Assembly (NCBI RefSeq): GCF_028649395.1
Contig: NZ_JAQSUW010000009.1
Span: 79,989 to 143,988, forward strand
Origin: Pseudomonas sp. Gutcm_11s
Lineage (GTDB): Bacteria; Pseudomonadota; Gammaproteobacteria; Pseudomonadales; Pseudomonadaceae
Length of the DNA: 64,000 nucleotides
Direction of reading: 5' to 3'
In this document: positions 16,929 to 19,642 of the stretch, piece after piece
Position numbering within the stretch: the first letter of the stretch is position 1
Layout of the letters: each line of letters starts with the position of its first letter
Translations under genes and position numbers: made by a program
Notes under the pieces: model-generated
Databases searched by the model: none
Seen by the model: only the letters and a program-made list of their open reading frames with translations
Told to the model about the DNA's origin: nothing

Positions 16929-17238
16929 GCCGAGCGCAAGGAAGTCTCGCCGGCACCTTGGTTTGCTCTACTGTCTTCGGCGAGCACACCCCCTGCAAGC
17001 CGCGCAGGGCTTGGTTTTGTGCAGTATTTCCCGTCGCGCTGTGCATGATGCCGCACGAGGTCGCCAATCCGTCGATCAATGGCGCAATTTCGCACTTAGC
17101 AACCCGGCCTTTTGCCCTTACACTGCGCCACCTTCAAAGCCAGGCGCCATGCCTGGTTGCGCTGCCCCTGCCTGAGTGGGGCTTCGCGGTCGGCTTTAGC
17201 CGGCCAGTCGCTATCCTGACCCCTATGAGGAAAAGCCG
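16929..17238. other. Intergenic region before the SUI1-domain gene
   Basis: 310 bp without a convincing gene. It holds small inverted repeats (CCAGGC 17140-17145 with GCCTGG 17151-17156; GTCGGCT and AGCCGGC arms around 17190-17205), which could end the NUDIX transcript or be part of a leader, and presumably the promoter of the next gene. TGAGGAAA at 17225-17232 is the likely ribosome binding site for the GTG at 17239. Confidence 0.5.
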
Positions 17239-17610
17239 GTGGTCAAGAAAGCTTCGTCGTTCTCCGCGCTGAGCGGTCTCGTCTATTCCACCGATGCCGG
17301 TCGGCACTGCCCCGACTGTGGCCAGCCCGTGGCTGCCTGTATCTGCAAGCAGAGCCAGATTCCCGAAGGCGACGGCATCGCCCGCGTGCGCCGCGAGACC
17401 AAGGGCCGTGGCGGCAAGACCGTCACCACCGTCACCGGCGTGCCCCTGGCCGAAGCCGAGCTGAAAGAGCTGGCCAGCGCGCTGAAGAAGCGTTGCGGCT
17501 GCGGCGGCGGGCTCAAGGACGGGGTCATCGAGATTCAGGGCGACATGGTCGAGCTGCTCCTCGAAGAGTTGAGCAAGCGCGGCTTCAAGGCCAAGAAGTC
17601 CGGCGGCTGA
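17239..17610 (+). CDS. yciH: SUI1/eIF1-domain translation factor, YciH family
   Basis: The 123-residue product has an N-terminal zinc-ribbon-like cysteine cluster ([13 protein letters not shown], about 24-36) and a C-terminal SUI1 fold ([35 protein letters not shown]). The family is related to eukaryotic eIF1 and in E. coli affects start-codon and initiator-tRNA fidelity. The gene starts with GTG; TGAGGAAA lies 7 bases upstream and no ATG is in frame. It precedes speA on the same strand with a 118-bp spacer that contains two hairpins. Confidence 0.92.
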
Positions 17611-17632
17611 CGCGCCACTTCCTAAACTTCCA

Positions 17633-17711
17633 TGCAGGAGGGGGAGTCCACTCTCCTGCAACCTTCATATTCGTACCGTACAAGAGCTGCCGGGCGGCAG
17701 CCCTTTTTCTT
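17633..17711 (+). promoter_or_regulatory. Two-hairpin leader with terminator upstream of speA
   Basis: First stem: TGCAGGAG (17633-17640) with CTCCTGCA (17653-17660). Second stem: GCTGCC (17686-17691) with GGCAGC (17696-17701), immediately followed by CCTTTTTCTT, a canonical intrinsic terminator ending 17 bases before the speA start. The simplest reading is the end of the yciH transcript. However, its position directly before the speA ribosome binding site (AGGAG, 17718-17722) also allows an attenuator role if transcription starts upstream. Confidence 0.65.
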
Positions 17712-17728
17712 GCCTACAGGAGATCTCG

Positions 17729-19642
17729 ATGGCCGCAAGACGCACCCGCAAAGACGATGGCAGCCAATGGACAGTCGCGGACAGCCGCAGCGTATATGGC
17801 ATTCGCCACTGGGGCGCCGGCTTCTTCTCGATCAATGATGCCGGTCGGGTGGAAGTGCGCCCGAACGGCCCGGACAGCGCGCCCATCGACCTCTACGCGC
17901 AGCTCGACGGCCTGCGCGGCAGCGGCCTGTCGCTGCCGCTGCTGGTGCGCTTCCCGGACATCCTGCAATACCGCGTACGCCAGCTGACCGGTGCCTTCGA
18001 CGCCGCCATCGAGCGCCTCGAATACGGCAGCCGCTACACCGCCCTGTACCCGATCAAGGTCAACCAGCAGGAAGCGGTGGTGGAGAACATCATCGCCACC
18101 CAGGACGTCTCCATCGGCCTGGAAGCCGGCTCCAAGCCCGAGCTGATGGCCGTGCTGGCGCTGGCGCCGAAGGGAGGCACCATCGTCTGCAACGGCTACA
18201 AGGACCGCGAGTTCATCCGCCTGGCGCTGATGGGGCAGAAGCTCGGTCACAACGTGTTCATCGTGATCGAGAAGGAATCCGAGGTGCAGTTCGTCATCGA
18301 GGAGGCGGCCAAGCTCAAGGTCACTCCGCAGGTCGGTCTGCGCGTGCGCCTGTCCTCGCTGGCGTCCTCCAAGTGGGCCGACACCGGCGGCGAGAAGTCC
18401 AAGTTCGGCCTGTCCGCCGCGCAGATTCTCTCGGTGGTCGATCGCTTCAAGGCGGCCAAGCTGGAGCAGGGCATCCGTCTGCTGCACTTCCACATGGGTT
18501 CGCAGATCGCCAACATCGCTGACTACCGCAAAGGCTTCCGCGAAGCCATCCGTTACTACGGCGAGCTGCGCGGCCTGGGCCTGCCGGTCGATCACATCGA
18601 CGTCGGCGGCGGCCTCGGCGTGGACTACGACGGCACCCACTCGCGCAACGCCAGCTCGATCAACTACGACATGGAGGACTACGCCTCCACCGTGGTCGAC
18701 ATGCTCAAGGAGTTCTGCGACCGCCAGGACATCCCGCATCCGCACATCTTCTCCGAGAGCGGCCGGGCCATGACCGCGCACCACGCCGTGCTGGTGGTGC
18801 AGGTGACCGACGTCGAGCGCCACAACGACGACGTGCCGGAGATCGACAAGTCCGTCGAACAGCCGGAAGTGCTGCAGAACCTCATCGAGCTGCTGGCCGA
18901 CAGTGACCCGGAAATGGTCGCCGAGACATACTGGCGCGCGACCCACTACATCGAGGAAGTGGCCGCACAGTATTCCGCTGGCAAGCTCAACCTGACCGAG
19001 AAAGCCCTGGCCGAACAGTGCTACTTCGCCATCTGCCGTCGCCTGCACAACCAGCTCAAGGCCCGTCAGCGCTCGCACCGCGCGGTGCTCGACGAGCTCA
19101 ACGACAAGCTGGCGGACAAGTACATCTGCAACTTCTCGGTGTTCCAGAGCCTGCCGGATACCTGGGCCATCGGCCAGATCCTGCCGATCCTGCCGCTGAC
19201 CCGCCTGGAAGAAGAGCCGCTGCGCCGCGCGGTGCTGCAGGACCTGACCTGCGACTCCGACGGCAAGATCCGCCAGTACGTCGACGAGCAGTCGATCGAG
19301 ACCAGCCTGCCAGTGCACGAAGTGCGCGAGGGCGAGGACTACGTGCTCGGCGTGTTCCTGGTCGGCGCCTACCAGGAAATCCTCGGTGACATGCACAACC
19401 TGTTCGGCGACACCGACTCGGTGAACATCTACCAGCGCCCGGACGGCAGCGTGGCCCACGCCGGCATCGAGACCCACGACACCATCGAGGACATGCTGCG
19501 CTACGTGCACCTGTCGCCCGAGGAACTGATGACCTACTACCGCGACAAGGTGGCCGGCGCCAAACTCTCGGCCAACGAACGCGCGCAGTACCTCGACGCC
19601 CTGCGCCTGGGTCTGACCCGTTCGTCCTACCTGGCGACCTGA
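17729..19642 (+). CDS. speA: Biosynthetic arginine decarboxylase
   Basis: PLP enzyme converting arginine to agmatine and CO2, the entry to putrescine through agmatine. The 637-residue length fits the SpeA group-IV decarboxylases. Lys110 in YPIKVNQQ is the PLP-binding lysine; [23 protein letters not shown] and [14 protein letters not shown] form the barrel active site, and LTCDSDGKI in the C-terminal part supplies the catalytic cysteine. AGGAG lies 6 bases before the ATG. A strong terminator follows directly. Confidence 0.98.

Follow-up and report, generated by a model that had tools for sequence, protein, structure and literature searches.

Candidate promoter modules and covarying hairpins in the conserved gap between yciH and speA of Pseudomonas

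The yciH-speA locus

The window, a 64,000-nucleotide stretch of DNA from Pseudomonas sp. Gutcm_11s that sits in a 4.7 Mb genome, contains the gene order hypothetical protein, Nudix hydrolase, yciH and speA. Arginine decarboxylase, the product of speA, is the entry to a putrescine route in Pseudomonas. The two last genes are separated by 118 bases, from the yciH end at 17610 to the speA ATG at 17729, and the features of this gap are collected in Table 1. The C-terminus of yciH lies at most 400 bases upstream in 156 of the 163 unique speA upstream regions compared here.

Table 1. Features of the yciH-speA gap and its flanking genes, in window positions
Feature	Position	Strand	Basis or remark
yciH (SUI1-related), upstream gene, GTG start	17239..17610	+	NCBIfam NF005297, TIGR01158
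CTAAACT, module 1 upstream half (ECF -35-like)	17622..17628	+	alignment C4 to T10 invariant or at least 90%, 56 representatives
Hairpin I, TGCAGGAGGGGGAGTCCACTCTCCTGCA	17633..17660	+	arms covary between species; position relative to GTC varies by genus
GTCCAC (RGTCNA), module 1 downstream half (ECF -10-like), 17 nt past CTAAACT	17646..17651	+	predicted start ~17658
CTTCAT, altered CGTCAY, module 2 upstream half	17663..17668	+	comparison of loci, letters checked
TACAAG, degraded -10-like TANNNT box, exactly 10 nt past CTTCAT	17679..17684	+	predicted start ~17691
Hairpin II, GCTGCC-GGGC-GGCAGC, 6-pair stem, the terminator of the sequence-only reading	17686..17701	+	terminator rule, folding, arm-swap
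Tail CCTTTTTCTT after hairpin II	17702..17711	+	at least 5 consecutive T here in 6/163 unique loci
ACAGGAG, speA ribosome binding site	17716..17722	+	by eye
speA, biosynthetic arginine decarboxylase, ATG start	17729..19642	+	TIGR01273

Loci compared

Upstream regions of speA were assembled from 176 loci, of which 163 were unique, with the window included as L002; these and all counts below are of species and not of independent events, as related species share descent. They comprised 30 loci from a first search, 46 of the 80 loci from a second, 60 more genomes and 40 from a family-wide search, the sampling having drawn on 90 of 149 genomes and then on 40 more out of 198 from the family-wide search. 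Left out were 33 distant loci (L079-L111) and L075. Sixteen of 136 loci were without the box-1 anchor, and the restoration of L047 gave 121, which were thinned to 56 representatives. Arm-swap tests, in which the 5' half of each hairpin was joined either to the 3' half from its own species or to permuted partners, used 54 of these 56, excluding L046 and L069, which had no anchor.

Two modules of rigid spacing

The upstream module, module 1, is a two-part motif that in its strict form (CTAAACT-N15/16-RGTC) occurs in 120 of the 163 unique loci, as compared with 0.0 in mononucleotide shuffles. When spacings from 11 to 21 were scanned, 100 loci fell at 15, 35 at 16 and no more than five at any other distance, while in 54 of the 56 representatives CTAAACT was followed by a GTC at either of two neighbouring offsets, with 0 to 4 at other offsets. 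The strict form was found in six sampled genera and was not found in g12 and g20, which are included by a looser form (AACTN-N14/15-RGTCNA; 116/163 loci, shuffles 0.15); neither form was found in g11, g16, g21, g22 and g23, each sampled with 2 to 4 loci. The window retains an intact module 1, as CTAAACT-N17-GTCCAC. This layout and spacing are those of an ECF sigma promoter, from which we infer a predicted promoter at this site. A minus-strand promoter reading of the same module was rejected, as the spacing is suitable but no -10-like hexamer could be seen by eye.

The frequency of module 1 beyond speA was addressed in 24 genomes using a pattern with RGTCWA as the downstream half, together with a reversed control pattern. 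One match was located at speA in 22 of the 24, and the remaining two, G000 and G012, are missed only because their W position is occupied by C or G; both match when N is allowed. Away from speA there were five matches, each a copy of the same site in a fluorescens-type genome, as against 19 for the control across the same 24 genomes, and these five sites are thus no sign of a regulon. A stricter pattern likewise gave four matches, three of them at speA, against six for its control. Approximately one copy per genome speaks for module 1 as a single-target element, or as the site of a factor whose exact sites are few. The recurrent copy away from speA (CTAAACTCTGCCCTTAAGGGGAGAGTCAA, L221:1501-1529) is held by 5 of the 24 genomes, some 350 bases upstream of a small ORF that appears by eye to be cupin-like, and may be a chance occurrence common to close relatives.

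Comparison with known ECF promoters shows both agreement and departure. The AlgU consensus is reported as GAACTT-N16/17-TCTNN (PMC7641640) and the PvdS iron-starvation box as TAAAT-N16-CGT (PMC2235872), and module 1 is alike in having two parts, an AAC-type half followed by a GTC-type half, at a spacing of 16/17. Unlike AlgU promoters, it has CTAAACT in place of GAACTT, with GAACT in 0 of 116 loci; against the TCTNN half, the spacing fits N16/17, and the base after TC is T in 72 of 116 loci and another base in 44. Unlike the PvdS box, it has TAAAC with RGTC in place of TAAAT with CGT, and TAAAT occurs in module 1 only at L048 and L150, there with AGTC. Module 1 further departs from both classes in being essentially single-copy, at speA. 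The text available for PMC8120321, where a link between AlgU and speA was sought, does not name the gene. SigX was also considered and set aside, as by eye no copy of module 1 stands upstream of oprF in the same genome; the SigX consensus is described as not precisely defined (PMC7641640), and the fatty acid operons as having no discernible consensus upstream (PMC3875570).

Module 2 (CGTCAY-N10-TANNNT) lies closer to speA and is also rigid, being present in 127 of all 176 loci and in 116 of the 163 unique ones (mononucleotide shuffles, 0.6), with no matches at any other spacing from 6 to 14 except N6 (six loci). Both modules are found together in 104 of the 163 unique loci. Module 2 resembles the -10 box of a sigma-70 promoter, preceded by an element at a fixed distance. 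In PhoB-type promoters the activator site stands 10 bp ahead of the -10 box, and the placement of CGTCAY 10 nt upstream of TANNNT is alike; such promoters have two direct half-sites 11 bp apart, and by eye a second half-site 11 bp further up is not evident. In L053 and L058 (Pseudomonas cichorii and P. viridiflava), both module 1 and hairpin I are missing and CGTCAT-N10-TACACT is kept, which argues for the promoter reading. The CTTCAT-N10-TACAAG of the window falls outside the module 2 pattern for want of the final T, and a simple sigma-70 scan of 17001-18200 returned no promoter. With module 2 degraded in this way, the window's lineage would have both a decayed second promoter and a hairpin II that resembles a terminator.

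Two hairpins maintained by compensating change

The sequence-only reading had described two stems in the 118-bp spacer and had proposed that relatives be searched for covarying base pairs. Both stems were found, at 17633-17660 and 17686-17701. Folding of the gap region as a whole gave a z-score of only -0.98, with 36 of 200 shuffles equally or more stable, so that the single sequence is weak evidence and comparison had to decide. In the arm-swap tests over 54 of the 56 representatives, hairpin I had a mean of -14.4 kcal/mol with its own partner and -9.5 kcal/mol with permuted partners (z -12.0), and hairpin II a mean of -12.1 as compared with -9.5 kcal/mol (z -7.9); the lowest means in 10,000 permutations were -11.3 and -10.9 kcal/mol, respectively. 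Thus, both stems covary. Row by row, the native partner ranked in about the best 5% for 18 of 54 (hairpin I) and 6 of 54 (hairpin II), and the signal accordingly comes from the set rather than from each member. As own arms fit far better than those of other species, these comparisons indicate that both hairpins are real and are maintained by compensating change.

By eye, hairpin I is located between the halves of module 1 in genera g8, g15 and g18 and around the GTC in others. Since its placement differs while the spacing of module 1 holds, the module and the hairpin appear to be separate constraints.

The tail behind hairpin II

Hairpin II had been read as a full intrinsic terminator, a stem at 17686-17701 with a T-run ending 17 bases before the speA ATG, and these sequence features are confirmed, including the 17-base distance. 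A terminator rule applied over 1,200 bases returned two overlapping matches, both at hairpin II, where shuffles gave 0.7 (sd 0.9). Across the relatives, 64 of the 162 unique 130-base regions satisfied the rule at some position, against 13-24 in shuffles, so that terminator-like matches are enriched, many of them elsewhere in the gap or weak-tailed. A run of at least five T behind hairpin II is limited to 6 of 163 unique loci, namely the window, its near relatives L003, L005 and L215, and also L019 and L155; at least four T are found in 15 of 163. In L019 and L155, which stand outside the near relatives of the window, a hairpin with five T stands some 27 bases ahead of the speA ATG. Other relatives of the window carry the tails CCTTTCTCG (L004) and TCTTTATCT (L033). 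As judged from these sequences, the T tail comes and goes, and has appeared outside the clade of the window at least in L019 and L155.

The element resembles intrinsic (Rho-independent) terminators in its G+C-rich 6-pair stem followed by a T-rich tail, and has the sequence form expected of them. It is unlike them in the two C between stem and T-run, in the restriction of a run of at least five T to so few loci, and in lying 17 bases from the next start codon. Hairpin II is best read from the comparison as a real, terminator-like hairpin with a lineage-specific T-run. An sRNA gene ending at hairpin II was rejected, because at least four T are present there in only the 15 of 163 unique loci given above.

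Proposed attenuation of speA

One branch of the sequence-only reading held that, if speA is transcribed through hairpin II, the leader would be an attenuator responding to polyamine or arginine. By this account, a leader RNA begun upstream of 17633 would choose between hairpin II and an anti-terminator. Its appeal is evident in the window, where hairpin II and the T-run separate module 1 from the ribosome binding site, and where a seven-base pairing between that site and the hairpin I 3' arm is feasible (-11.7 kcal/mol); it is this pairing that makes the idea attractive from one sequence. The T-runs of L019 and L155 at the same place also favour it. Against it, over the representatives the 3' arm of hairpin I does no better than permuted partners, either with the ribosome binding site (z -1.0) or with the hairpin II 5' arm (z 0.0). 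Of all 15 pairings among six segments, only hairpin I with itself (z -11.7) and hairpin II with itself (z -3.8) surpassed permutation, and the other 13 pairings were no better than permuted partners, such that the conserved alternative pairing sought among relatives was not found in these segment pairs. Nor is the terminator conserved with speA, as an attenuator would need, given how few loci have the T-run. Rfam 15 gave no match at the gathering score for seven loci and the window, and at E up to 1 a single match far below that score.

A leader peptide fares no better. The sole ATG in the gap lies at 17632, at the foot of hairpin I, and begins a reading frame of 68 codons that runs across the speA start in a different frame; when ATG frames were compared, this candidate was rejected, as the ATG is absent in L003, L004 and L033, and its lack of conservation also counts against attenuation. 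The speF leader of Salmonella, as described in PMC6386406, is alike in being leader control of a polyamine gene, which is the idea taken up in the sequence-only reading, and unlike in that it serves another gene and that the speA gap is without a conserved ATG or conserved alternative pairing. A pseudoknot in which the loop of hairpin I (GTCTA) would pair with the second box (TAGAC) was also tried and rejected, since by eye it suits the fluorescens-type and fails in the putida-type (TACAC) and mendocina-type. Conditional attenuation of speA is thus not supported, and the arginine- or polyamine-responsive leader is judged very improbable.

A proposed transcription-start region for speA

The account that we hold to be somewhat probable is that the yciH-speA gap is a conserved transcription-start region for speA, composed of predicted promoters and an unconditional, partial terminator. 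Module 1 would serve as an ECF-sigma-type promoter with a start near 17658, and module 2 as an activator-assisted sigma-70 promoter with a start near 17691. In the lineage of the window, hairpin II and its T-run would act as a partial, unconditional terminator that ends most read-through from the yciH operon, is crossed by a share of the speA transcripts, and may constitutively damp transcripts from module 1. Hairpin I lies upstream of both predicted starts or is cut by them and so would be limited to read-through RNA, in which a role in protecting the 3' end of yciH mRNA is possible. Ligand-dependent anti-termination would not be needed. The other branch of the sequence-only reading, in which the hairpin ends yciH and the speA promoter overlaps it, is upheld in outline, as modules of rigid spacing are found upstream of hairpin II and directly adjoining it; these are candidate promoters, and the starts are predicted positions. 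Both starts fall between 17633 and 17705, the limits that had been proposed for starts speaking for and against attenuation.

What stands against the promoter reading is that module 1 occurs about once per genome, unlike a sigma regulon, and matches neither AlgU nor PvdS promoters. Were module 1 the main promoter, with module 2 degraded in the window, transcripts would have to cross hairpin II, which leaves some room for attenuation. A related scheme places the halves of an ECF-type or single-target speA promoter inside a covarying inverted repeat, with a terminator having evolved and the second promoter having decayed in the lineage of the window to leave one promoter with built-in attenuation; this we regard as rather unlikely. 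Comparable doubt attaches to the proposal that CTAAACT and TANNNT are plain -10 boxes of tandem sigma-70/RpoS-like promoters, whose +1 hairpins protect the mRNA 5' end. CTAAACT does resemble an RpoS-type -10, and by eye several species have a hairpin about 7 nt after each box; the fixed GTC downstream of CTAAACT is then left unexplained, however, no clear -35 lies upstream of box 1, and the hairpin of g8, g15 and g18 appears by eye too near the box to be transcribed whole.

Alternatively, the gap may encode one structured RNA, riboswitch-like or protein-bound, with the conserved stretches as RNA motifs rather than promoter boxes. Although two covarying hairpins with conserved stretches between them speak for such an RNA, the distance from GTC to CTAAACT stays constant by eye while the hairpin apex moves past between genera, which fits DNA better than RNA, and the N10 spacing of module 2 hardly varies. 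RNAalifold on a MAFFT alignment also gave no consensus pairs, for which misplaced gaps may be the cause. A structured RNA is accordingly considered distinctly unlikely, somewhat less so than the arginine- or polyamine-responsive leader.

Expression of speA and additional observations

In the literature located on Pseudomonas speA, as far as the portions available extend, no mapped start site or described promoter was found, and the main text of a start-site paper on P. syringae DC3000 does not name the gene. One speA plasmid of P. syringae is reported to contain the gene together with its native promoter (PMC10017717), and the vector could contribute. With raised RpoH in P. aeruginosa, reported increases were 7.2-fold for PA4842, 15.6-fold for PA4841, 3.9-fold for PA4840 and 3.0-fold for PA4839, which is speA (PMC9866376). 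This gradient fits an upstream operon promoter with partial passage into speA, and could instead reflect a separate action on speA.

A rigid two-part motif with its strict form in six sampled genera offers a concrete target. An ECF promoter at module 1 would link polyamine synthesis to a signal of envelope or iron stress; otherwise, the gap would hold an ordinary internal operon promoter and a terminator.

Two further features of the relatives were observed. In one genome, speA falls into two matches that overlap, suggestive of a frameshift (G108:C1:779445-780414). Many fluorescens-type loci have about 75-100 bases between the yciH stop and CTAAACT, bounded by an inverted repeat that in L034 reads CTCTGTGAAAACCA ... 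TGGTTTTCACAGAG; L023 likewise has a spacer between yciH and module 1, and this spacer may represent a small insertion or a hairpin at the 3' end of yciH.
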